DNA of 16,001 bases from positions 1 to 16,001 of the forward strand of contig JAOUGG010000007.1 of NCBI GenBank assembly GCA_029857855.1. The letters are read 5' to 3'. Under the pieces are notes generated by a model. The model searched no databases. It was not told the origin of the DNA and saw nothing but the letters and a program-made list of their open reading frames with translations. Positions 2,207 to 16,001 of the stretch are shown piece after piece (the first letter of the stretch is position 1; each line of letters opens with the position of its first letter). This DNA comes from Acidimicrobiia bacterium. GTDB lineage: Bacteria; Actinomycetota; Acidimicrobiia; Acidimicrobiales; SZUA-35. Position numbers and translations under genes: made by a program.

Positions 2207-3403
2207 TCACGGTGACGGTTGGCCCCAGCGGACGGGAACCGACAGCGGGCCCCGGAAGGCCCAGCCGCCGAAGCGAACCGGTTCCGCATCGACGTCGAGG
2301 GACGGCGCACCCAGTCGCTCGAACAGCCGGGGGAGGGCGTGATCGCCGACAAGACTGCGGGAGGCCGCCGCCCCGGCGCAGAAGTGGGGCCCGGCACCGA
2401 AGGTGAGCGACGGGCCGGTGTTGCGGGTGACGTCGAACCGATCGGACAGGGCGAAGTGGCGCTCGTCGCGGTTCGCCGAGCCGAACATCAGAAACACGCG
2501 TTCGTCGGCCTCGAATCGAACCGGCGGCCCGTCGTCGGGCTCGAACTCGAAATCGGCGGCGATGCGGCGAGGTGACATGCCGATCGGTGCGATCCAGCGG
2601 CAGTACTCCTCGAACACCTGGAGCCACGTCACGGCACCGTCGAGTGCCTGGGCCAGCTGATCGGGGTGGGTGAGGAGTGCCCAGACAGCACCGGCGATCG
2701 CGTCACGGGGCTCGTTCTGACCGCCGGAGATCGTGAGTTTGATGTTGGCCCGCACCTGGTCGAGTGGCATGCCGGACGCCACCATCACCGACAGCAGGCT
2801 GTTGTTGGGCTCGGCCCGGACTTCGGGCAGCCGCTCATCGATGGCGGCGTCGATGGCCGCGGTGGCGGCATGACAGCGGGCCTCCACATCGGGGTCGCCG
2901 ACGTAGTTGGCGATGCCGTCGATCATGGCCTGGCTCCAGGCGTCCATCTCCTCGAAGGTGATCGTGGTCAGTCCGGTGATGATCTTCAGCGCCTCGCCCG
3001 ACACAGCAGTGGCGTACGCAGGCACGAGATCGACACGTTCGTGATCGGCCAGTGAGTCGATCACCTCGTCGGTGATACGGGCGAACTCCGCCGTCCAGTA
3101 GGTCTTTACCTTCGACGGCGAGATCGCCGGGTAGTAGACGAACCGCTCACGGCGATGCTCGTCGCCGTCCTTGCGCATCATGTTGCGGCCCATCAAGACG
3201 TTCATCAACCCACCGGGTTGTTCGGAGGAGAACACCGCGACATTCTTCTCGCAGGTGTGGACATCGTCGCGCCGGGTCAGCAGCGTCGCCCCCAGCTCGG
3301 GCACGAAACAGATCGGTGTCGCGGCCCGCATCCGGGCGAGTGTCGGGTAGGGGTCGTCCCAGAACGATGCAGGATCGATGGAGACGACCGGGGCGTTCGA
3401 CAT
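2207..3403 (-). CDS. cytochrome P450
   Basis: Haem-thiolate monooxygenase of 398 residues, a usual length for soluble bacterial P450s; it would need ferredoxin/reductase partners, and none are in the window. Visible motifs: DEHRRER near 81-87 (C-helix), ExxR at 266-269 (EYCR), SANRDERHF near 309-317, and the haem loop [10 protein letters not shown] at 335-344 with Cys342 as iron ligand. The I-helix reads [11 protein letters not shown] (226-236) in place of the usual A-G-x-D/E-T-T, so the conserved acid/alcohol pair is absent as normally written. The ATG at 3403 fits family length; the frame is open to 3583 but that part has no P450 character. Upstream is a CATACT box six bases from the ATG. 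The gene diverges from purA and precedes the dehalogenase gene. Substrate unknown. Confidence 0.93.
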
Positions 3404-3409
3404 CCACCC

Positions 3410-3476
3410 AGTATGCGGCGACCACCGACGGTGGCTCCACTCCCGATCCTCCACCCGATTCGAGCGGGGTGGGATC
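3410..3476 (-). promoter_or_regulatory. P450 promoter region with two inverted repeats
   Basis: On the minus strand a -10-like CATACT lies at 3415-3410, six bases before the P450 ATG. Just upstream is the perfect inverted repeat CCACC-GAC-GGTGG (3422-3434), placed where the spacer and -35 would be. A second repeat pairs CCACCC (3451-3456) with GGGTGG (3467-3472), flanked by GATC (3445-3448) and GATC (3473-3476). This placement fits operator sites in the P450/purA divergent region. No binding protein is identified. Confidence 0.4.
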
Positions 3477-3512
3477 GACAACCCCGCTCTACGGGTCCCG
3501 GGCCATTCGCGG

Positions 3513-3527
3513 TACCATCGAACAGTG
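3513..3527 (+). promoter_or_regulatory. purA -10 box and leaderless start
   Basis: TACCAT at 3513-3518 fits the TANNNT -10 pattern. It ends six bases before the GTG start of purA at 3525, so transcription would begin at or next to the start codon. No Shine-Dalgarno sequence is present upstream, which fits leaderless translation. No good -35 is visible. Confidence 0.5.
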
Positions 3528-4805
3528 CCAGCAACGATCGTGGTCGGAACCCAGTGGGGTGACGAGGGTAAAGGCAAGTTCACCGATCTCCTTTCGAAGG
3601 AGATGTCGATGGTCGTGCGCTATCAGGGCGGCCACAACGCCGGGCACACCCTCGTGGTCGACGACGAGACGTTCGCCCTCCAACTCGTGCCGAGCGGGGT
3701 GCTCTACGACCACATCGTGCCGGTCATCGGTAACGGCGTCGTCGTCGACCCGTTCGTGCTGCTGGCCGAGATCGACATGCTCGCCCGTCGGGGGGTCGGC
3801 TGTTCCCGCCTCCGGGTCTCCGGCAACGCCCACCTGATCCTGCCCTATCATCAACAGCTCGACGCCCTTCACGAACGGCACCTCGGCAAGGCGAAGTTGG
3901 GTACCACGAAGCGGGGCATCGGGCCGGCCTACGCCGACAAGGCGATGCGGCTTGGTCTGCGGGTTCAGGATCTCCTCGACGAGATGATCTTCCGCGAGAA
4001 GCTGCGGGCCGCTCTCATCCACACCAACAAGGTGCTGACCAAGGTATTCAACCGCCTTCCCGTCGATTCCGACGCCCTGGCCGACAAGGTCCTGTCGGAG
4101 TGCCTCGAGCCGTTGAAGCCCTACATCGCCGATACCACCGACCTCATCCACGAGAGCCTCGAGGCCGGTCAGCAGGTGCTGTTCGAGGGCGCGCAGGCCA
4201 CGTTCCTCGACCTCGATCACGGCACCTATCCCTTCGTGACATCCTCGAATCCGACGGCCGGTGGTGCCTGCACCGGAACCGGTGTCGGACCCCGCCACAT
4301 CGACCGGGTGCTCGGTGTGGCCAAGGCCTACGTGACCCGAGTCGGCGCCGGGCCGTTCCCCACCGAGCTGTTCGACGACTACGGCAACCGGATGGTCGAC
4401 ATCGGCCGGGAGTACGGCACGAATACCGGTCGCCGTCGCCGTCCGGGTTGGTTCGACGCCGTGATGCTCCGCCACGCCGTGCGGGTCAACAGTCTCACCG
4501 ACCTGGCCATCACCAAGATCGACGTGCTCGACACGTTCGACGTGGTGAAGGTCTGTGTCGGCTACGAGATCGACGGTCAACGGGTCGACAAGCTGCCCTA
4601 CCATCAATCCGATCTCCACCGGGCCAAGCCGGTCTACGAGGAGCTTCCCGGATGGAAGACGGATCTCTCGATGGTGCGCCGGCCCGAGGACCTTCCGTCA
4701 GAGGCCACCGAGTACCTCGGGTTCATCACCGAGCAGGTCGGGGTCCCGGTGTCGCTGGTGTCGACCGGACCTGGCCGCGACGAATACCTGCACCTCAGCC
4801 CCTGA
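3525..4805 (+). CDS. purA: adenylosuccinate synthetase
   Basis: Joins IMP and aspartate, using GTP, to form adenylosuccinate in AMP synthesis; cytoplasmic homodimer. The 426-residue length is normal. Motifs in order: QWGDEGKGK near 9-18 (GTP P-loop and catalytic Asp), QGGHNAGHT near 34-42 (catalytic His), [14 protein letters not shown] near 126-139 (IMP contacts), [22 protein letters not shown], and [15 protein letters not shown] toward the C-terminus. The GTG at 3525 ([12 protein letters not shown]) matches the family N-terminus; the open frame extends upstream to 3378 but that part is unrelated. The start directly follows a TACCAT box, so the message is probably leaderless. The gene is divergent from the P450 and convergent with the zinc-finger gene. 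No defects seen. Confidence 0.98.
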
Positions 4806-4844
4806 ACAGGGGCCGGCGGTACTCCCTCAACAGGGGTCGGCGGT
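4799..4844 (+). repeat. tandem hairpin repeat between purA and the zinc-finger gene
   Basis: A 20-base unit occurs twice, at 4801-4820 and 4825-4844, with two differences (core AACAGGGG, then CGGCGGT). Each copy can fold: CCCCTG (4799-4804) with CAGGGG (4807-4812), and CCCT (4824-4827) with AGGG (4832-4835). The first copy includes the purA stop codon. Both convergent genes end here, so the pair may act as a bidirectional terminator, though no T runs follow. Confidence 0.5.
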
Positions 4845-4867
4845 CACCGGTTCTCCCGGCGGCTTCG

Positions 4868-7450
4868 TCAGCGACGGCGGCGAGGTAGGTTTTCGGCCGC
4901 CTCCTGGGCGTCCGGCGCGATCCCCCGCAGGGCGGGCGGGATCCAGGAACCGCGAGCGTCGGTATCGGCCCGCTGTGTCGCTGTGCTGCCGTCGAGATCG
5001 GGAACGTCGTCGACAGCCGTCCACGTTGCCGAGTCGTCGTCGAGGGTCTCCAACACGGTCGACTCCGGTGAGACGACGTCGGGGATGTGTTCGGAGGCCA
5101 TCGGTTCCACCTCGACGACCGCCGCTGGCATCGTCGGATCCCCGAGTTCCCACGATTCCGCAGGCGCCGCCGGTTCGGACGGCTCCGCCGGTTGCCAGGT
5201 TTCCCAGGACTCCGACGGCTCGTCGGGTTCGATCGTTTCCGCCGGCACCGCTGCCTGGGGTGACTCGGACGGTTCCCACGACTCCCAGGCCGGCGACGGC
5301 TCCCAGGTTTCCCGAGATACCGACGGCTCGTCGGGTTCAATTGGCTCCGCCAGCACCTGGTGTTCCACGGGTTCGGCCGGCAGGAAGGGATCCAGCGGTT
5401 CGCTCGCCGGGAGCGATTCCCCTCGCGGCGGTACGTCGGTTTCCCCCGCCTCCGGCGGAAGGAGATCGTCGATCGACGGGACATCGGTGAAGTCGGGCTG
5501 CCTCCCGACGGAGTATTCGACTTCCACGGGTGCCAGCTCGTCCGGGAACAGGTCGTCGATGGGTGGAGGTTCGGATGTCGGCGACGGCGTATCTCGTCGG
5601 GCGAATGCCGCCAGCGGGTGCCGATCGGCATCGGCAAAGGCGGCCAACGGGTGCCGCTCGGCCGGGGTGTAGGAGACAATCGGGCGGCGGCTGGGCGGTG
5701 GCGTGTCGGTGGCGGGTTCCGGGTCCTGCGTGGCGGCGATCGGGAGTGTTGGGTCGATCCTGGGTTCCGGCTCCAGTTCCGGTGCGGCGGTGATCGGATC
5801 CTCCGCCTCGACGGCGGAGACGGGTTCCGGCTCTAGCGTTGCGGGGATCTCCAAGGGCAGCTCGACCGCGGTTCGGGCTGTGATCGGCTCGACGGGAGGC
5901 TGCGCTGGTTCAGATGGCTGAGCCGGTTGGAGAGGTTGCGCCGGTTGCGAGGCACCCTGGCTCCGGGTCGGTGCCGGTTGCGTGCCCGGTTCCGGTGCGG
6001 CGGCCGCTTCGGCGGACTCGAGAGGCGCCGGCGATGAAGGCGAGATCGGTGCCGGAACCCGGTTCCGGGGCTGGTCGTCGGTCGGGGTGGAGTCCGATCC
6101 GCCACCGTCGGATGCCGAGAACGGGTCGGTGGAGAAGTCGGGCACGGCGTGGGGCTCGCTGACCACCCGACTCCGTTTCAGGAACGGGTTTTCGGCCGGC
6201 CCGCTCGAGGATGGCTGATTCGACAGGTCGGCCACCAGATCCCGCAACCGCGGCGACATGTCCGGAATCTGATCCAGCGGTCCGATCGGGCGGGAGCCTC
6301 CGTTGCCGTCGGGCCCGGTCTGATCCGGAGCGGCTGGGTAGTCGCCAATCGCCCGCAGTGTCCGCCGCCGCTCCTCTTGGATCGGTGGCTCGCTCGCGTC
6401 GGGCGGGGTACCGAACGGGTCCTCGGTGAACGGCACGTCTCCCAGGTCCGATGGGGGCATCCAGTCGCCCGGATGGTCGGATTCCGCGTCGTGACGCACG
6501 GTGTCGTCCTGCGGCAGCCTAAGAAGATGGTCATTCGCGTCCGGGCGGGGTGGCGGCCCGGCGTTGGCCGTTGAACCGGCGCCATCTCCGAGGGGCGAGG
6601 ACGGATCGGTTTGAGGATCGTCGAGCACATCCTGGGCGGCTGCTATGGCGGACATGCTCTCGGCCGTCGACCACTGCACCTCAATCTCGGCTTCATCAGC
6701 GTGGCCGCCGTCAGCATCCGTGTCGCTGTCGGGGAAACCCTGCAGCAGGGTGGAGGGGATGGCAACCGAGCTGTCCGGTGGCAGCTCTGTGGCTTCGTGG
6801 AGCACGGAGGCGGCCGGGGCGCCGTCCGTCTCGTTCGCATCGATCGGGGTATCGGCAGGCCGACCCGTCTCGCCGTCGCGGCCCCGGCGTCGTATGTCGG
6901 CCAGTTGGCTCACCGCGTCGGCGTCCTTGGCTCCGTCCGCCCGGTTCTGGTCGGTACCCGACCCGCTGCCGTTCAGGACTTTGTCGATGGGGACGAGGTC
7001 ATCCTCGTTCCGTTCCGACTCGTTGGGCTTCAGTCGTCCCAGCAGTCGCCTGATCCCGGTGCCGTCCGCCGCGGCCGACGAACCGTCGGCGGACTCGGCC
7101 GAGCTCGATTCGGCCGCCGCCTTCTCCCGATCGCTCTTTGACACCGGAGGGGGTGGGGGGCCGGCGACCAGGGCGTCGGCCGGCAGGCCGGCATCGAAGA
7201 ACTGAAAGAAGTCTTCGGGCTGTTCGGTGGCGGCGTAGGCCTTCCGGCGGGATTTCACCGTGCGGCGGTCACCTCGAACCTCAGGCTTGCCGCTTCCTCT
7301 GACGCCCGAGACCGTGAGCGCACAGTCCTTGCAGACCATATCCTTACGGCCCTTCAGGGGTAGCGCGCATGATCGGCAGAGATCCCCGTAACAGAGATCA
7401 CAGACGTCAACGGCCATCTCAAATGTATGAAAGTCACAGTGACCGTTCAT
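4868..7450 (-). CDS. zinc-finger protein with long disordered acidic/proline tail
   Basis: Predicted 860 residues. The first 45 hold C5, H8, C17, C20, C25, C28, C40 and C43 (CDFH, CDLC, CRSC, CKDC), a B-box/treble-clef-like set that could bind two zinc ions. The rest is low complexity, rich in Pro, Ser, Glu, Asp and Ala, with few hydrophobic stretches, so probably disordered; I see no membrane segment or signal peptide. Short repeated elements occur: IDDL(F/L)P twice, HPLAAFA twice, and Trp-containing SWETW/SWEP units near 680-760. The C-terminus ends in a basic NLPRRRR. GGAAAG (7461-7456) five bases before the ATG is a fair ribosome site. The gene lies between purA and purB, diverging from purB by 86 bases. 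I cannot assign a function; a scaffold or RNA/protein-binding role would be a guess. Confidence 0.8.
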   Translation of the reverse strand: MNGHCDFHTFEMAVDVCDLCYGDLCRSCALPLKGRKDMVCKDCALTVSGVRGSGKPEVRGDRRTVKSRRKAYAATEQPEDFFQFFDAGLPADALVAGPPPPPVSKSDREKAAAESSSAESADGSSAAADGTGIRRLLGRLKPNESERNEDDLVPIDKVLNGSGSGTDQNRADGAKDADAVSQLADIRRRGRDGETGRPADTPIDANETDGAPAASVLHEATELPPDSSVAIPSTLLQGFPDSDTDADGGHADEAEIEVQWSTAESMSAIAAAQDVLDDPQTDPSSPLGDGAGSTANAGPPPRPDANDHLLRLPQDDTVRHDAESDHPGDWMPPSDLGDVPFTEDPFGTPPDASEPPIQEERRRTLRAIGDYPAAPDQTGPDGNGGSRPIGPLDQIPDMSPRLRDLVADLSNQPSSSGPAENPFLKRSRVVSEPHAVPDFSTDPFSASDGGGSDSTPTDDQPRNRVPAPISPSSPAPLESAEAAAAPEPGTQPAPTRSQGASQPAQPLQPAQPSEPAQPPVEPITARTAVELPLEIPATLEPEPVSAVEAEDPITAAPELEPEPRIDPTLPIAATQDPEPATDTPPPSRRPIVSYTPAERHPLAAFADADRHPLAAFARRDTPSPTSEPPPIDDLFPDELAPVEVEYSVGRQPDFTDVPSIDDLLPPEAGETDVPPRGESLPASEPLDPFLPAEPVEHQVLAEPIEPDEPSVSRETWEPSPAWESWEPSESPQAAVPAETIEPDEPSESWETWQPAEPSEPAAPAESWELGDPTMPAAVVEVEPMASEHIPDVVSPESTVLETLDDDSATWTAVDDVPDLDGSTATQRADTDARGSWIPPALRGIAPDAQEAAENLPRRRR
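5195..5341 (-). repeat. internal 108-base-spaced repeat in the zinc-finger gene
   Basis: A 39-base stretch at 5195-5233 recurs at 5303-5341 with five differences. The offset of 108 bases equals 36 codons. The copies encode IEPDEPSESWETW and IEPDEPSVSRETW, so the gene has grown by in-frame duplication of a Trp/acidic unit. Confidence 0.75.
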
Positions 7451-7524
7451 TACTACTTTCCAGCACCCGTCGATGTACTCTGTTCCATCGACCGCCCGAA
7501 GATCATGCTTAACAAAAGCGGAGC

Positions 7525-7539
7525 GGAGGTTCTCCGATG
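7525..7539 (+). promoter_or_regulatory. purB ribosome binding site
   Basis: GGAGG at 7525-7529 lies seven bases before the purB ATG at 7537. It fixes this start and, unlike purA, shows conventional leadered initiation. The 86-base divergent interval also holds GGAAAG (minus strand, 7461-7456) for the zinc-finger gene and a possible TACTCT -10 at 7476-7481 with no clear -35. Confidence 0.75.
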
Positions 7540-8952
7540 ACCGTGCCCAACATCCTTGCCGAGAGATACGCCTCCGAGGAGATGGTCGGCATCTACGACC
7601 AGACGAATCGGATCCGTCTGGAACGGCAGTTCTGGCTTGCGGTCCTCCGGGCCCAGGCCGAACTGGGGGTTGACGTCCCCGAAGGCGCGATTGCCGACTA
7701 CGAGGCCGTGATCGACAACGTCGATCTGGATTCGATCAACCAGCGCGACAGGATCCTGAAGCACGACGTCAAAGCCCGGATCGAGGAATTCAACGAGCTC
7801 GCCGGCCATCAGGAGATCCACAAGGGCCTGACCAGCCGCGACCTGACCGAGAATGTCGAGCAGTTGATGACCTGGCGGGCGCTCGAGTTGATCGACCATC
7901 GGACGGTGTCGCTTCTTCGTCTCCTTGCCGAGCGAGCTTCGGAATACGCCGGGCTGGCCATGGTCGCCCGCACCCACAATGTTCCGGCCCAACCGACGAC
8001 TTTGGGAAAGCGGTTCGCTCAGGCGGGCGAGGAATTGTTGCTGGCGCATCGTGAGCTTCGTGACCTGCGAGCCGCCTATCCGATTCGAGGAATCAAAGGC
8101 CCGGTCGGATCACAACAGGATCAACTCGATCTGCTCGGATCGGTCGAGAAGGTGGAAAGACTCGAGGAACTGGTGGCTCGTCACCTCGGCATCGATCAGC
8201 GGTTCAACGCCGTCGGCCAGGTGTATCCACGGTCACTCGACTTCGCCGTCGTGTCGACACTCCTTCGGTTGGCCGCCGGTCCATCGAGTATGGCCATGAC
8301 CATCCGGCTGATGGCGGGCCACAATCTCGTCACCGAGGGATTCAAACAGGGCCAGGTCGGGTCATCCGCGATGCCTCACAAGATGAATGCGCGATCCTGT
8401 GAACGAATGAATGGGTTGTACACGATCCTTCAGGGTCATGTCACGATGGCGTCGAGCCTGGCCGGTCATCAATGGAACGAGGGGGATGTCGCCTGCTCGG
8501 TCGTGAGACGTGTCGTTCTCCCCGACAGCTTCTTCGCGATCGACGGTCTCTACGAGACGGCGTTCGACGTCGTGCGAAACGCTGGAGCCTTTCCCGCGGT
8601 CATCGACAATGAACTCCGCCAGTACCTTCCGTTTCTGGCCACGACGAAGCTGCTCGTTCACGCTGTGCGGCACGGCATGGGCCGGGAGGATGCCCATCAG
8701 GTCATCAAGGAGCACGCCGTCGCCACGGCTCTCTCGGTGCGCGAAGGTAAGGGCGACGGCACCCAGTTGATCAGCCGGCTGTCAGCCGACGAGCGGTTCC
8801 CCGGCTCCGAGGACGACCTCTGGTCAATGATCAGCAGGCCGTCCGACTTGCTCGGGACTGTCGAAAAACAAGTCGGCGTATTCTGCGATCAGGTCGAAAC
8901 GCTGTCGTCAGAATACGCCGAACCGTGGTATCGAGGAGCTGAAATCCTCTAA
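7537..8952 (+). CDS. purB: adenylosuccinate lyase
   Basis: Fumarase/aspartase-superfamily lyase that releases fumarate from SAICAR and from adenylosuccinate in purine synthesis; cytoplasmic homotetramer. The 471 residues are a usual length. Visible: KHDVKARIEEF near 75-85, GLTSRDLTEN near 97-106, ARTHNVPAQPTTLGKR near 144-159 with catalytic-site His147, and the signature loop GSSAMPHKMNA at 275-285 with the catalytic Ser. The start has a strong GGAGG seven bases upstream. It forms a functional pair with purA, from which it is separated by the large minus-strand zinc-finger gene, so the two purine genes are not one transcript. A GC hairpin follows the stop. No defect is seen. Confidence 0.97.
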   Translation: MTVPNILAERYASEEMVGIYDQTNRIRLERQFWLAVLRAQAELGVDVPEGAIADYEAVIDNVDLDSINQRDRILKHDVKARIEEFNELAGHQEIHKGLTSRDLTENVEQLMTWRALELIDHRTVSLLRLLAERASEYAGLAMVARTHNVPAQPTTLGKRFAQAGEELLLAHRELRDLRAAYPIRGIKGPVGSQQDQLDLLGSVEKVERLEELVARHLGIDQRFNAVGQVYPRSLDFAVVSTLLRLAAGPSSMAMTIRLMAGHNLVTEGFKQGQVGSSAMPHKMNARSCERMNGLYTILQGHVTMASSLAGHQWNEGDVACSVVRRVVLPDSFFAIDGLYETAFDVVRNAGAFPAVIDNELRQYLPFLATTKLLVHAVRHGMGREDAHQVIKEHAVATALSVREGKGDGTQLISRLSADERFPGSEDDLWSMISRPSDLLGTVEKQVGVFCDQVETLSSEYAEPWYRGAEIL

Positions 8953-9894: not shown

Positions 9895-9970
9895 TGGTGG
9901 TCGGGACCGGCGTCGATCCGGTGACCTACCGCTTTTCAGGCGGTCGCTCTCCCAACTGAGCTACCCGACC
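9895..9970 (-). tRNA. tRNA-Phe (GAA)
   Basis: 76 bases including an encoded CCA. Acceptor GGTCGGG pairs with CCCGACC, the D stem is GCTC/GAGC, the anticodon stem ACCGC/GCGGT carries the loop CTGAAAA (anticodon GAA), and the T stem is ACCGG/CCGGT. Discriminator A. It is last in a Glu-Asp-Phe cluster and the only one of the three with a genomic CCA. Confidence 0.97.
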
Positions 9971-9980
9971 AGATTGTGAG

Positions 9981-10055
9981 CGGTCCCGACGAGATTTGAA
10001 CTCGCGACCTCCGCCTTGACAGGGCGGCGTGCACTCCAGACTGCACTACGGGACC
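9981..10055 (-). tRNA. tRNA-Asp (GTC)
   Basis: 75 bases to the discriminator G; CCA is not encoded. Acceptor GGTCCCG/CGGGACC, D stem GTGC/GCAC with a ten-base loop, anticodon stem CCGCC/GGCGG with loop CTGTCAA (anticodon GTC), T stem GCGAG/CTCGT with one G-T pair. Ten bases separate it from tRNA-Phe. Confidence 0.97.
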
Positions 10056-10077
10056 AGATCAACTCTTCAGTTGTTCG

Positions 10078-10150
10078 CACCCCCAACGGGATTTGAACCC
10101 GTGTTACCTGCGTGAAAGGCAGGCGTCCTAGGCCGCTGAACGATGGGGGC
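10078..10150 (-). tRNA. tRNA-Glu (TTC)
   Basis: 73 bases to the discriminator G; CCA is not encoded. Acceptor GCCCCCA/TGGGGGT, D stem GTTC/GGAC, anticodon stem CCTGC/GCAGG with loop CTTTCAC (anticodon TTC), T stem CGGGT/CCCGT. It is first in the cluster; 22 bases separate it from tRNA-Asp. Confidence 0.97.
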
Positions 10151-11341: not shown

Positions 11342-12685
11342 ATGACAGCGACCACCCTGGCGCAGATGATCGAGCCCGAGTCTGTCGGCTTCGACGTGCT
11401 CGAAAAAGAGTATCGGCCCCTGTTGAAGTTGGTGGAGCAGCTGATCGGTGTCGTGCCCAATTGCGATCCCGTCCTCGAGATCTGGCCGCCGGGATTTCGC
11501 AGCTACAACCTGCTCGTACCCAATCTGTTGAACCTCCCCGCGTCGCTCGTGGGTCAGGGAGCGCCGAAGGATCTCGTCGGGCTTGCGATGTACACGGCGA
11601 GTCGGGCCGCCGAGTGCATGTACTGCTCGGCACACACCTGCTCGTTCGCACTTCGGCGGGGTACCTCGCCCGAAGCGCTGGTCGGCGACTACTCGCCGAT
11701 CGAAGCTGCGGTGGCCCGGGTGGCCGAGGGCATCTCGAAGGTGCCGGCCGACCTGACGAAAGCCGACGTGGCCGAGATCGAATCCCATCTCCCGCAGTCC
11801 GACATCGAATGGATCGTGCTGAGCGTGGCCATGATGGGCTTCCTCAACAAGTTCATGGACACCATGGGCATCGAGTTGGAGGACGCCGCGGTCGCCGATG
11901 TCGAGGAGCTGATCGGCCCGACCGGATGGAAGGTCGGCAAGCACGGCTGGAATTCGGAGGACCTGATCGACCTCGACATGCCCGAGGGTCGCCCACTGCG
12001 GCCCCGAGGCAAGGCGGCGGCCAACGGATCGAGCTCGAACGGGTCGACCCGGCCGTCGTACCTCGACGTGCCACAGGACTCGCTCGGCACGTACTTGAAG
12101 GTGATCCGCCAGGCTCCCGCCGCACTCCGCATGGAGCGGCAGTGGACCAAGGGCATGTCGGGCCGGATCGCCCCGGCGTTGCTCACGTTGGAGGCCGACG
12201 TCGGCCATTCGTTCCCGATCCTGGCCAGCCTCCATCACGGTCGCGGGGTTCGGGCCATCGCCACCGTGCTGCGTGACAATCTCGATCCGGAGCTGTCGAC
12301 GCTCGGGCTGCGGGCCAAATGTCTGGTCGGCCTGGTCTACGCCCGGGTCGTCGGCAACGAGGTGCTCACCTCGGAGGCCATCCAGTTGGCGCTGACCCTC
12401 GTTCCCGACATGGACCATCCGCTGCTCACCGCCGTCGGCCGGTTCGCCACCGCTTCGCCGGAGACGGCAACGCTGCCGCCTCAACTCAGCAGCGTCGAGG
12501 CCGCCGCGGTGATGTTGGCCAAGGTCGGTGCACCGAGTCCGTCACAGATCAACGAGATCAGCATTGAGGCGGCGGCGGGTTCGATGTCGGCGGCCCAGAT
12601 CGTGGAGATGGTGGTCTGGTTGTCGGTACAGCAGACGCTACACCGGCTCTACGTCTACTACGACGTCAGCCGCGACATCTACTGA
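11342..12685 (+). CDS. AhpD-like (alkylhydroperoxidase/CMD) two-domain protein
   Basis: 447 residues. The N-terminal domain (about 20-190) has SRAAECMYCSAHTCSFALRRG at 87-107, the AhpD/carboxymuconolactone-decarboxylase motif E-C-x-x-C-x-x-H with E91, C92, C95 and H98. In AhpD the two cysteines and His form a redox centre that reduces peroxides. A Ser/Asn/Gly linker (about 224-240) joins a C-terminal half (about 245-447) that looks like a second copy: GLRAKCLVGLVYARVVGNEVLTSEAI and QIVEMVVWLSVQQTLHRLYVYYD align by eye with the N-terminal KDLVGLAMYTASRAAE and DIEWIVLSVAMMGFLNKFMD, but without the Cys pair. Single-domain members are about 180 residues, so this is double size. The start ATG lacks a good ribosome site. 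The 3' end overlaps convergent ctaA. Substrate unknown. Confidence 0.85.
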   Translation: MTATTLAQMIEPESVGFDVLEKEYRPLLKLVEQLIGVVPNCDPVLEIWPPGFRSYNLLVPNLLNLPASLVGQGAPKDLVGLAMYTASRAAECMYCSAHTCSFALRRGTSPEALVGDYSPIEAAVARVAEGISKVPADLTKADVAEIESHLPQSDIEWIVLSVAMMGFLNKFMDTMGIELEDAAVADVEELIGPTGWKVGKHGWNSEDLIDLDMPEGRPLRPRGKAAANGSSSNGSTRPSYLDVPQDSLGTYLKVIRQAPAALRMERQWTKGMSGRIAPALLTLEADVGHSFPILASLHHGRGVRAIATVLRDNLDPELSTLGLRAKCLVGLVYARVVGNEVLTSEAIQLALTLVPDMDHPLLTAVGRFATASPETATLPPQLSSVEAAAVMLAKVGAPSPSQINEISIEAAAGSMSAAQIVEMVVWLSVQQTLHRLYVYYDVSRDIY

Positions 12686-13633
12686 ATCGGCTACTGCATC
12701 GGATCCCGGTTCCGGCCGCTCCGACTCCGCGGGGCGGCGGGCGAACAGGCTCAGATGGAGGAGCAGGGCGAGGCCCCAGACTGTGACCGAGCCGAGAATG
12801 TGGAACCACACCAGAACCGGTGGAACGCCGGCGAGGTATTGCCAGTAGCCGGTGGCGCCCTGGGCCACGGAGGCCACCAGCAGCCAGCGGGCGAGCCGGA
12901 CCGGGTCGAGGTTCGGAGCGGATAGTCGCTCGACCGGGGTGGCCCGTAGCCGAACCCACAGCCACAGAGCCGTCAACACGAAACACCAGACGGTGACGCT
13001 GTGCGTCCGGGCGATCGTCTCGAAATCCAGGCCGAGACGTTCGGCCCGGCTGTCGCCGCTGTTGGGGCCGGTGCCGGTGACCAGCGTGCCGACGACGAGT
13101 ACCAGACTCACGAGACCGACCATGACCCGGCTGTGGAGCAGGATCGACGGGCCGACCCGTGGAGATGGCCGTTCGGGCCGGGCGCCCGCTTTCAGCCAGA
13201 GCACGATCGCGTTCCACACCATGACCGCCGAGAGCAGGAAGTGGCCGGCGACGGCGATCGGATCCAGTTCGAGTACCACCACGGCGCGGCCGAGGAGGAT
13301 CTGGGCCACGGAGCCGGCGATCAGGCCGAGAGCCCACGGAAGGAGATCGGGCCTGGGATCGGTCATCCGGCGACGCAGCCGCCAGGCCTCGAATGCGACG
13401 GCAAGGGTGAACAGGCCGATGATCCCCGAAAACACCCGGTTGCCGTACTCGATCTTGCCGAGCAGGTCCTGTTCGGAGGGCAGGAGTTGCCCGTCGTGGC
13501 ACTCGGGCCACTGCGTGCAACCGAGCCCGGCCTTGGTGAGTCGAACGGTTGCTCCACTCACGACTATCAGGCCCAAAAGTACGGTGGTTAGAGCCACCAG
13601 CTGCCGATAACGACGCAGACTCACCGTCCCCAC
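12638..13633 (-). CDS. ctaA: haem A synthase (CtaA/COX15)
   Basis: 331 residues, eight predicted membrane helices. Oxidises the C8 methyl of haem O to formyl, giving haem A for aa3 oxidases, in the cytoplasmic membrane. Visible: SGATVRLTKAGLGCTQWPEC (26-45) with the loop Cys pair C39/C45, IEYGNRVFSG (61-70) with the conserved Glu, and His residues H131 (AGHFLLSA), H211 (RTHSV) and H278 (FHILGS). Where Bacillus CtaA has the haem-ligand His of the ExxHR motif, this protein has Asn65, a change I recall in other actinobacterial CtaA. The C-terminus adds an acidic tail (about 300-331) that overlaps the AhpD gene by 48 bases. The start is GTG 13633; GTG 13624 is possible and better placed for a TAGCGT box at 13637-13632. 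It diverges from ctaB. Confidence 0.96.
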   Translation of the reverse strand: MGTVSLRRYRQLVALTTVLLGLIVVSGATVRLTKAGLGCTQWPECHDGQLLPSEQDLLGKIEYGNRVFSGIIGLFTLAVAFEAWRLRRRMTDPRPDLLPWALGLIAGSVAQILLGRAVVVLELDPIAVAGHFLLSAVMVWNAIVLWLKAGARPERPSPRVGPSILLHSRVMVGLVSLVLVVGTLVTGTGPNSGDSRAERLGLDFETIARTHSVTVWCFVLTALWLWVRLRATPVERLSAPNLDPVRLARWLLVASVAQGATGYWQYLAGVPPVLVWFHILGSVTVWGLALLLHLSLFARRPAESERPEPGSDAVADSVDVAADVVVDVEPV

Positions 13634-13725
13634 GCTACCACTCGGTTACGATTCGCCGATCCTGCCAATTCAGTTCGCCCACCACCGCCGGGCAGGGTGG
13701 TTTCACAGTACCCTTGTGGCTGGTG
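13632..13725. promoter_or_regulatory. divergent ctaA/ctaB promoters, both leaderless type
   Basis: For ctaA (minus), TAGCGT at 13637-13632 lies seven bases before GTG 13624. For ctaB (plus), TACCCT at 13709-13714 lies eight bases before GTG 13723. Both fit TANNNT boxes with transcription starting at the codon, and neither gene has a Shine-Dalgarno. An inverted repeat ACCACC/GGTGGT (13681-13686, 13696-13701) sits upstream of the ctaB box and could be an operator. Confidence 0.45.
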
Positions 13726-14625
13726 CTCACAGCTGCTCCTGCGCGTTCTCGGGTTCGGGCCTTCATTGCCCTGACGAAGCCTCGAATCATCGAGCTGCTC
13801 TTGGTGACCACGGTGCCGACCATGATCGTCGCCAATCGCGGGCTGCCGTCGGGCTGGCTGATCCTGAACACCATTATCGGTGGAACGCTCGCCGCCGGCG
13901 GGGCAAACGCGTTCAACATGTACATCGACCGTGACATCGACGCCCTCATGAACCGGACCAAGGGCCGCCCGCTCGTCACCGGCGAAATCGAACCGGTCGA
14001 GGCGCTTGTGTTCGCCGCCGCCATCGAGGCCGTCGCCTTCGTCTGGCTCGCCGTGTTCGTCAACCTGCTGTCAGCCGTCCTGGCTGTCGGGGCCTGCGCC
14101 TTCTACGTGTTCGTCTACACGCTGTGGCTGAAACGAACCTCCACCCAGAACATCGTGATCGGCGGTGCCGCAGGCGCGGTTCCGGTCCTCATCGGCTGGT
14201 CGTCGGTCACCAACTCGGTGGGCTGGGCGGCGATCATCCTGTTCGGCGTGATCTTCTTCTGGACCCCACCCCACTTCTGGGCGTTGGCGATCAAGTACGA
14301 AGACGACTATTCCGCCGCCTCGGTTCCCATGATGCCGGTGGTGGAAGGTCATCGGTCCACCGCGGCCCAGATGGTCGTCTACTCCACCGTCGTCTGGGCG
14401 CTGACGATCGCCTTCTGGTGGGTGGCCGACATGGGTTGGCTGTACCTCGTCGTGGCCATGGGGCTCGGCGTGGCCTTTACCGGCGGCGCGGTTCGTCTGT
14501 ACACCGAAACCGATCCACAAGCCCAGAAGCAGCAGTCCTTGCGCTACTTCACCTTCTCGATCACCCACCTGACCGTTCTATTCGCCGCACTCGCACTCGA
14601 CCAGCTGATCGTCTGGGGATTGTGA
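13723..14625 (+). CDS. ctaB: protohaem IX farnesyltransferase (haem O synthase)
   Basis: 300 residues; UbiA-family prenyltransferase with about nine membrane helices that adds farnesyl to protohaem to make haem O, the substrate of CtaA. Visible: ALTKPRIIELLLVTTVPTM near 16-34, the first Asp motif NAFNMYIDRDIDALMNRT near 64-81 followed by KGRPL, WLKRTSTQNIVIGGAAGAVP, and the second motif WTPPHFWALAIKYEDDYSAA plus SVPMMPV. The GTG at 13723 was chosen because family proteins begin just before this helix and a TACCCT box precedes it; the frame is open back to 13549 without family character. It is divergent from ctaA and upstream of an oxidase-related gene, fitting a haem A/oxidase locus. Confidence 0.96.
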   Translation: MLTAAPARSRVRAFIALTKPRIIELLLVTTVPTMIVANRGLPSGWLILNTIIGGTLAAGGANAFNMYIDRDIDALMNRTKGRPLVTGEIEPVEALVFAAAIEAVAFVWLAVFVNLLSAVLAVGACAFYVFVYTLWLKRTSTQNIVIGGAAGAVPVLIGWSSVTNSVGWAAIILFGVIFFWTPPHFWALAIKYEDDYSAASVPMMPVVEGHRSTAAQMVVYSTVVWALTIAFWWVADMGWLYLVVAMGLGVAFTGGAVRLYTETDPQAQKQQSLRYFTFSITHLTVLFAALALDQLIVWGL

Positions 14626-14792
14626 CGGTTTCATCATCGGGCGTTCGACGCGGTTACAGTACGTGGCCGCAAGGGTGCAATAGTGGCGCGCTCGCCGAAA
14701 CCGCCTTCCGGCAGGGCCGGAGCATCGGCGACGAGGTCCGAATCACCGACAATCCGCACGCCGACCATCGGCACGCTGACAACCTGCAAATG

Positions 14793-14818
14793 GCCTCCTC
14801 GGAAGTTCCGTCGGAGGC
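14793..14818 (+). promoter_or_regulatory. hairpin enclosing the ribosome binding site of the oxidase-like gene
   Basis: GCCTCC (14793-14798) pairs with GGAGGC (14813-14818), and CGG (14800-14802) with CCG (14808-14810) inside. The right arm contains the only good Shine-Dalgarno, GGAGG at 14813-14817. When folded it would hide the ribosome site. The rest of the 202-base interval from 14626 shows no gene; TACAGT at 14655-14660 is a possible -10 box without a clear -35. Confidence 0.5.
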
Positions 14819-14827
14819 GGTAACACC

Positions 14828-16001
14828 TTGGCTGAAGATGAACTCATGGCTTTAACAGAAACCCGCCCTGCTGAAACCGGATCCGACAGCGCTGACGTCG
14901 CAGCCCTGCCGTCGTTCACACCCGATGGATTCCTCGGCTCCGTCGACCACAAGCCGATCGGCCGCATGTTCGTCGGTGGGGGGATCATCTTCCTGCTCGC
15001 CGGTCTCGTCGTCGGTCTGGTCGCAGCCTTCGAATCATCCGACGGGTCAACCTTCCAAATCGCCGCCGACGGCGCCGAGTTCGCCCAGATCTGGTCGATC
15101 AGCCGGGATCTGGCCATCTTCGGCGGCCTCGTTCCGATCCTGATCGGGATCGGCCTCTACATCGTGCCGCTGCAGATCGGCGCACCGAGTCTCGCCTTCG
15201 CCAGGGGAGCCTCCGGAGCCTTCTGGACCTGGCTGCTCGGAACCGGCCTGCTGATCGTCGCCTACCTGCTCAACGGTGGTCCCGGCGGCGGCCGTCGTGA
15301 CTTCGTCGTGCTCTGGGCCTGTTCACTGGCCATGATGATCGGTGCCGCGGTCTGGGCGCTCGTCGTTCTCGCCTCCACCGTTCTCGGCGCTCGAACCGTC
15401 GGTATGACGATGGATCGCATGCCGTTCACCTCGTGGGCCTACTTCATGTTCTCGCTCCACGCCATCTTCAGCCTGCCGATCGTGATGGGCGAGCTGCTCC
15501 TCGTGCTCCTGCGGGTTCGCTACGGTCACCTCGACATCACCGACACGGCCTCACTGACCGGCGTGCTCGACGGCGTCAGCCTCGCCCCGTCGATCTACTG
15601 GCTCGGGCTTCCCGCTCTCGGCATCGCCGCCGACGTGATCGGCGCCCACACCGGACTCCCGATCCTGCAGCGTCGGATCACGATGGTCGCCATCACGGCG
15701 TTCGAACTGCTGGCGTTCGGTCAGGATCTGGTCGGTATGGCCACCGAGCGAGCCGTCGAGTTCGACAACGTCCTTCTCGTCGTCGGGCTGTTGACCGCCC
15801 CGCTCCCGGTGCTCGCCGTCCTCGGTCTCGGTGGCAACAGCCTTCGCCAGGGCACGCTCCGGCTGAAGGCGGCGCTGGCCGCCGTCCTGCTCTCGGGCCT
15901 GCTGCTGCTGGCCGCCACGGTCGCCTCTCTGCTCGGTCTGGTCGAGCCGGTCATGGGCTATCTCGAGGAGCTGTCCCCCGGTTCGGTCGACATGACGAAC
16001 T
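14828..16001 (+). CDS. cytochrome oxidase subunit I homologue lacking metal ligands (partial)
   Basis: Runs off the right edge; 385 residues are visible counting from Met at 14846. Start TTG 14828 is preferred because GGAGG lies ten bases before it; ATG 14846 in the same frame is the alternative. Fold signatures of heme-copper oxidase subunit I are clear: VDHKPIGRMF (33-42), LYIVPLQIGAPSLAFAR (104-120), WTWLLGTGLL, NGGPGGG and GMTMDRMPFTSWAYF (186-200). The ligands are not. Where subunit I has the helix II haem His (F-T-M-H-G), this reads WSISRD with Ser86. Where it has FWFFGHPEVYILILPAFGI, this reads YWLGLPALGI (251-260), missing about eight residues including the CuB His and cross-linked Tyr. 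The His-His pair region reads FGQDL (291-295). So it is probably not an oxidase by itself. It may be a structural or partner subunit. It follows ctaB. Confidence 0.85.
   Translation, partial: MAEDELMALTETRPAETGSDSADVAALPSFTPDGFLGSVDHKPIGRMFVGGGIIFLLAGLVVGLVAAFESSDGSTFQIAADGAEFAQIWSISRDLAIFGGLVPILIGIGLYIVPLQIGAPSLAFARGASGAFWTWLLGTGLLIVAYLLNGGPGGGRRDFVVLWACSLAMMIGAAVWALVVLASTVLGARTVGMTMDRMPFTSWAYFMFSLHAIFSLPIVMGELLLVLLRVRYGHLDITDTASLTGVLDGVSLAPSIYWLGLPALGIAADVIGAHTGLPILQRRITMVAITAFELLAFGQDLVGMATERAVEFDNVLLVVGLLTAPLPVLAVLGLGGNSLRQGTLRLKAALAAVLLSGLLLLAATVASLLGLVEPVMGYLEELSPGSVDMTN

Follow-up and report, generated by a model that had tools for sequence, protein, structure and literature searches.

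A putative non-catalytic subunit I paralogue without metal ligands at the head of the caa3 oxidase operon of Acidimicrobiales

The window, the whole 16,001-base stretch of DNA analysed here, ends in a reading frame, pI, which its sequence marks as a predicted non-catalytic paralogue of heme-copper oxidase subunit I; in relatives it is followed by two genes, pIII and X, with which it forms a module heading the caa3 oxidase operon. We consider it on balance probable that pI-pIII-X is a non-catalytic module that came from a duplicated oxidase half and is now a structural pseudo-protomer of the caa3 oxidase, with which it would be physically associated. Position 16001 is the end of both the window and its contig (C110, covered in full), where the pI frame is still open, and the source genome has a completeness of 81%. 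The relevant features are as follows, with residues numbered from the TTG at 14828.

12638–13633, minus strand: ctaA (haem A synthase), divergently oriented, an arrangement shared with relatives; 46% identity across the stretch present in locus L003.
13549–14625, plus strand: ctaB (UbiA prenyltransferase family), directly upstream of pI, as in relatives.
14813–14817, plus strand: GGAGG, a Shine-Dalgarno-like sequence ahead of pI.
14828–16001, plus strand: pI, the ligand-free paralogue of subunit I; from TTG it runs for 391 residues before the contig end cuts the frame.
15101–15103, plus strand: Ser92 (Ser86 from ATG), at the place of the helix II low-spin haem a His (bovine 61) in the MAFFT and HMMER alignments.
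15188–15190, plus strand: Ser121, at the aligned place of the D-channel Asp.
15584–15598, plus strand: APSIY (residues 253–257), aligned in place of HPEVY; CuB His 240 becomes Ala253, and the Pro and Tyr257 are kept.
15731–15736, plus strand: Val302-Gly303, aligned with the CuB His-His pair (His 290/291).
15818–15820, plus strand: Val331, at the aligned place of the K-channel Lys.

Two start codons are candidates for pI, TTG at 14828 and ATG at 14846, and the ATG is the likelier because the same Met opens all five other relatives displayed. The original prediction of a haem A locus in which pI has its own ribosome site agrees with the adjacent ctaB and ctaA and with the GGAGG. A CCTCC...GGAGG hairpin (14780–14850) could mask this Shine-Dalgarno site, and folding there is not better than that of shuffled sequences (z −0.41). 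A 580-residue protein, P0001, has 100% identity to the window pI across the shared part and supplies the missing C-terminal remainder.

That the frame encodes a heme-copper oxidase subunit I homologue, as first proposed, is borne out by a Pfam COX1 match of 92.3 bits over residues 44–367. A profile made from 82 pI sequences aligns with solved subunit I over profile positions 9–528 (E 4e-89), and 17 overlapping hydrophobic windows merge by eye into 12 segments; chain-long homology and these 12 segments place pI in family A. Homology to family A subunit I (CtaD/CoxA, PF00115, TIGR02891) extends along nearly the whole chain, the LEW.SP..NF tail included, and the HPEVY Tyr and the loop motifs are shared; the difference lies in substitutions at all six haem/CuB His and at the D-channel Asp, gate Glu and K-channel Lys. 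The 391-residue part scores 83.3 bits against NCBIfam TIGR02891 (CtaD_CoxA), whose equivalog cut-off is 670.75. Judged by its sequence, pI is thus a subunit I homologue that fails the catalytic defining features of that family, having neither the low-spin haem pair, nor the CuB and haem a3 His, nor the D- and K-channel residues. Several sources name many pI relatives 'cbb3-type subunit I'. We rejected an assignment to the cbb3 type (family C), as the NCBIfam matches are of the CtaD_CoxA, cyt_aa3_Actin, QoxB and CyoB kinds and the PDB matches are listed without a cbb3 name.

The alignment register was set with MAFFT against canonical subunit I of the same class, and an independent HMMER profile alignment to solved subunit I gave the same register; we take the ligand numbers in bovine subunit I to be 61, 240, 290/291, 376 and 378. 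Besides the replacements listed above, the gate Glu aligns with Ser255, and in P0001, beyond the contig end, Ile404 takes the place of haem a3 His 376 and Gly406 that of haem a His 378. Each of 30 canonical subunits I from this class has all six His. What stands at these places among the pI proteins bears the original prediction out: none of the 120 nearest (the best 120 of 176 over threshold, P0001 included) has any of the six, which is not a matter of chance. With six ligands and both proton-channel residues gone, O2 reduction or pumping by pI would not be expected. A Phe-His-Glu sequence at residues 400–402 of P0001 puts a His three residues ahead of the lost haem a3 ligand. This His occurs in 114 of the 120 listed relatives, yet in 6 of 40 pI rows from the order, and is possibly a clade-specific feature.

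Ser86 (by ATG numbering) as the replacement of the helix II haem His had been read correctly, and the loss of ligands is confirmed by HMMER, profile alignment having been suggested as a check. Two points of register have to be amended. The HPEVY segment was thought to be deleted with a gap of about eight residues; there is no gap and the segment reads APSIY. The CuB His-His pair had been read as GQD, and neither register does hold a His, but the pair aligns with Val302-Gly303 and GQD lies a few residues earlier. These errors leave the earlier conclusion unaffected.

Looking downstream for subunit II and a complete subunit I had also been suggested, and both follow in relatives. The operon in this Acidimicrobiales-type order runs ctaB, pI, pIII, X, subunit II/cytochrome c, canonical subunit I, III, IV and CtaG. 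The part from ctaB through pI, pIII, X and a subunit II-cytochrome c fusion to canonical subunit I is found in all 13 loci of the order, the majority of which were picked for two matches sharing one contig; subunits III and IV come after it in 11 of the 13 and CtaG in 8. Six of six further loci have the same gene order, and at one locus (L091) the contig start cuts pI. The pI frames of two loci (L043 and L044) are nearer to canonical subunit I in BLAST and were identified as pI by profile. One locus (L087, genome G029) has about 5 kb of other genes between X and subunit II (about 3026–8054), among which we noted by eye one ABC-transporter-ATPase-like and one metal-binding-lipoprotein-like frame; because the insert lies outside pI-pIII-X, the three genes hold together there as a unit.

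The second gene, pIII, encodes a degenerate subunit III of about 205 residues. It matches cytochrome c oxidase subunit III (PF00510) barely over the cut-off (Pfam COX3 24.3 and 26.1 bits against 23.8 in the two scanned) and differs from the canonical subunit III encoded alongside it: a pIII profile gives 149–198 bits for pIII and 45–82 for canonical subunit III. X is a membrane protein of about 260 residues, detected by BLAST in 12 of the 13 loci and by profile in the remaining one (L044); neither of two X sequences scanned has a Pfam match, nor has the one scanned against NCBIfam. The genes that follow the module in relatives are those of a canonical caa3 oxidase, with a CuA motif in 39 and CxxCH in 40 of 42 subunit II frames (sister orders included), and the operon of the relatives joins a six-His subunit I to a subunit II with CuA and cytochrome c. 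The window's own genome carries the end of canonical subunit I, III, IV and CtaG on another contig (C894); pIII and X were not found in its assembly, which is 81% complete. Canonical subunit I of one genome (G041; L207, 5641–7802) and pI of another (G025; L208, 7234–8708) are each split across two overlapping frames, possibly through sequencing errors.

The module and the caa3 oxidase occur together across the order. In genome lists compiled by hand, 194 genomes of the order divide into 119 with both the module and a caa3-type subunit I, 63 with neither, 2 with the subunit I alone and 10 with the module alone, so that the module is present in 119 of the 121 genomes with a caa3-type subunit I. 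We called a subunit I caa3-type if its best match had E < 1e-190, or if it was a fragment with at least 65% identity; other listed subunits I are 44–51% identical. Both of the genomes with subunit I alone (G001 and G112) have X right at a contig end, and since the contigs stop there, pI may sit beyond. Pieces of caa3 subunit I adjoin pI in three of the ten module-only genomes (G004, G041, G063); the other seven, where a caa3 subunit I may also be present, are G024, G030, G067, G096, G099, G138 and G163. No caa3 operon with an intact upstream flank and without pI was found among the 194 genomes, and a separate hand tally places the module in 131 of 196 genomes of the order.

Outside the order, the 11 sister-order caa3 loci with an upstream flank (2–2.9 kb visible) have no adjacent pI or pIII, and a twelfth (L081) ends at subunit II and has no flank. 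A search of two of these genomes (G199 and G204) for a pI at another site gave, among the matches listed, the canonical place only. As sister orders run caa3 without an adjacent pI, caa3 chemistry does not need it. Public relatives of pI that carry titles are from Acidimicrobiales or Acidimicrobiia genomes, mainly metagenomic. An early pI was also used as query against 296 genomes of the phylum. With the locus of the query itself left aside, the 29 best loci comprise 27 of other classes and 2 of the same order, and each of them has the six His; a pI less query-like than canonical subunits I would escape such a search. The best 80 loci of a contig database (genome_contigs) include 17 with a subunit I holding fewer than four of the six His, from 13 Acidimicrobiia, 3 Actinomycetota without a class and 1 labelled Actinomycetes, and 11 of the 17 have a canonical copy too; a scan with the single sequence gave no match.

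The module also tracks the respiratory chain. A split-cytochrome-b bc complex is found in 124 of 131 genomes of the order with the module and in 3 of 65 without it, whereas a long QcrB (judged by best E-value) is found in 33 of the 131 and 59 of the 65; these tallies were typed by hand, and the window's genome (G000) counts for the bc complex only through a second type of split cytochrome b, which shares 54% identity with the usual type. We considered and rejected the bc complex as an obligate partner of pI, as sister orders pair it with caa3 without an adjacent pI: all 12 sister-order genomes tested have the split-cytochrome-b bc complex. The bc link therefore follows the choice of respiratory chain and not pI itself, and pI seems to have been added by this order rather than to be required by the split-bc/caa3 chain. 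Alternative complex III was likewise set aside as a partner, with ActD (PF11821) over cut-off in 0 of 196 genomes of the order; there are two weak matches below it, one in the window's genome. In that genome the second split cytochrome b (L123, contig C762) is followed by a Rieske protein, a cytochrome c and, by eye, a nitrate-transporter-like frame. In one genome without the module (L126), a long QcrB lies near a COX3 gene.

Early lineages of pI retain part of what the window's clade has lost. Among the 120 proteins nearest an early pI (the best 120 of 361 over threshold), the haem a His pair is present in all 120 and the haem a3 His in 97; all 120 have Arg for CuB His 240, and the other two CuB places are without His. 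None of the six His remains in 21 of the 40 pI rows from loci of the order (the truncated pI of the window included). In the early lineages the C-terminus of X is mostly formed by a cupredoxin-like (blue-copper-like) domain that bears a CDFHxxM-like motif; the domain is missing from X in the window's family, and in four loci of family f7 (L085, L091, L287 and L288) it looks degenerate by eye. For a comparison of the two proteins, 72 loci were picked by hand to spread over the families, with one locus dropped as X is cut by the fetched stretch (L264) and one as pI is cut by its contig (L091). The CDFHxxM-like motif is present in 19 of the 72 loci, nearly all of early lineages; 17 have both the X copper motif and the pI haem pair, 2 the copper motif only, 8 the haem pair only and 45 neither. 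The CuB triad is absent from all 72, with a single His at one CuB place in two rows. A coupled loss of X copper and pI haem was considered (Fisher p 1e-8) and rejected, as the tree offers only 4 independent contrasts for the link, which is then not significant.

Sister orders have a related protein, X', a membrane cupredoxin behind ctaG. The approximately 85 residues preceding its copper domain match about residues 150–245 of X, and the copper domain of X' has no counterpart in X of the window's family. A C-x4-H-x4-M motif was found by pattern in 6 of 12 X' loci, and Pfam Copper-bind is over cut-off in two of three scanned.

Purifying selection acts on pI. Seven of nine listed pairs have dN/dS (NG86) of 0.054–0.117 (dS 0.23–1.40) and two have 0.232 and 0.344, the last being a pair of haem-bearing early members (L043/L086). 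In matched genomes the values for pI and canonical subunit I are 0.082 versus 0.036 and 0.25 versus 0.136, so that pI evolves faster than its canonical counterpart. One canonical pair (L110/L105, dN/dS 0.516, 56% identity) was set aside as probably not orthologous. The original view that pI is no fresh pseudogene and is maintained is in keeping with dN/dS well below 1 and with its spread across the order. Canonical subunit I has 204 near-invariant positions, of which 41 are retained by at least 75% of pI; the active-site His do not belong to these. Kept motifs are DHK near the N-terminus, PxxxG...AFxR, T...RxxGM...P, W..K..G and the C-terminal LEW.SP..NF, most of which presumably lie in loops, from the topology as we know it. 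In a tree from which the ligand columns had been removed (LG+G4), pI is one clade (100/100), with long branches noted by the program.

The original prediction held that a catalytically empty subunit I is maintained as a partner in an unusual oxidase complex, and the dN/dS values and the module's presence in nearly every caa3 genome of the order support this. Among the three roles that it named (partner subunit, assembly factor and sensor) we favour the partner subunit. The place of the module in the operon, its order-wide tie to caa3, the pairing with a degenerate subunit III and the kept motifs away from the active site all argue for a structural pseudo-protomer. Points on the other side are the sister-order caa3 loci that have no neighbouring pI, the faster evolution of pI, the seven further module-only genomes, and the failure to find pIII and X in the window's assembly. 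Such a module would have originated when an oxidase half (I and III) was duplicated and a membrane cupredoxin became attached. CuB would have been lost first, after which the module could no longer have reduced O2, and the blue copper and haem sites would have gone later. The graded series suggests that pI once carried electrons. In the window's lineage the pseudo-protomer may pack against the active II-c/I/III/IV core to give an asymmetric oxidase, in which it might stabilise, orient or dock the working half.

We also put forward, tentatively and with somewhat less than even expectation, a more far-reaching proposal. The caa3 oxidase of Acidimicrobiales would be an asymmetric hetero-complex of an active (II-c, I, III, IV) and a dead (pI, pIII, X) oxidase-derived half. 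Its early form would have been a redox unit that lacked CuB and bore haem, with Arg at a CuB position and its own blue-copper protein, and the living series, from haem sites without CuB through one haem site to none, would show an enzyme half turning into a scaffold.

An alternative explanation is that the module is an assembly factor set absent from the mature enzyme: as an apo-mimic of the core it would bind haem A or copper or pass them on, or else act as a chaperone for newly made subunits I and III. This fits the location of the module, which has ctaB on one side and the structural genes on the other in a cluster that also includes ctaA and often ctaG. Early members moreover retain haem ligands, and their X mostly has a copper-type domain, which would suit a carrier of cofactors. 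We nevertheless regard it as unlikely: the 45 of 72 loci with neither haem pair nor copper motif have kept the genes, so that delivery is improbable as a shared function, and sister orders have caa3 without an adjacent module.

Less likely again is that pI reuses the fold of subunit I as an independent sensor, regulator or small-molecule channel, linked to caa3 through co-expression alone. A CuB-less haem protein like the early members could give rise to a sensor of O2 or NO, and in the window's clade all six metal-binding His are indeed gone. PF00115 is the sole Pfam domain listed for P0001, however, and loss of the haem ligands together with continued residence in an operon beside a degenerate subunit III is not what a sensor would lead one to expect.

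The graded distribution over the tree of the haem a3 His, the blue-copper motif and the haem a pair would also suit a module that was redox-active in early lineages, with electrons passing from the blue copper of X to the haem a of pI, and that is now on its way to being lost, the window copy being a late relic. This we think improbable, since a present function is argued for by dN/dS well below 1 in cofactor-free members too and by the 131 of 196 genomes with the module, and the link between copper motif and haem pair does not withstand tree correction. A pseudogene, frameshift or assembly artefact, to which the truncation of the frame at the contig edge might point, is hardly credible given a longer identical protein in other assemblies, the absence of ligand His throughout the 120 listed relatives and purifying selection in all nine listed pairs (dN/dS 0.054–0.344).

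Cofactor-free paralogues are known in other respiratory complexes, and in CydA/CydB and other respiratory subunit pairs one paralogue is without cofactors, a duplicated subunit having been kept as a structural half; pI is likewise a retained duplicate, although of an unrelated protein family. We know of no preserved heme-copper subunit I that has been stripped of every metal site. Among open-licence PMC titles and abstract openings, none describes a ligand-free subunit I or a conserved cofactor-free pair of subunit I and III paralogues, a scope that leaves aside subscription journals and preprints. In the excerpts available, the Aquifex B-family oxidase is a homodimer (PMC8251803) and a mycobacterial supercomplex has the composition III2IV2 (PMC11189923); such dimeric oxidases and III-IV supercomplexes have oxidase halves that pair in membranes, which makes a pseudo-protomer plausible, and those excerpts mention no cofactor-free subunit I. 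If the module belongs to the enzyme, much of one bacterial order uses an asymmetric terminal oxidase, one easily overlooked because several sources call pI a cbb3-type subunit. With the graded series one can ask what in the oxidase fold has a purely structural purpose, and test what a CuB-less oxidase relative does.

Elsewhere in the window, an AhpD-like frame (11342–12685, plus strand, by eye) adjoins ctaA, and a similar frame in the same place in another genome (G191; L033, 3093–4463) indicates that synteny reaches further upstream. An 860-residue, low-complexity, Pro/Glu-rich frame (4868–7450, minus strand) has a Cys-rich N-terminus that by eye resembles a small zinc-binding domain. Three consecutive tRNA genes, for Phe, Asp and Glu, lie at 9895–10150 on the minus strand.
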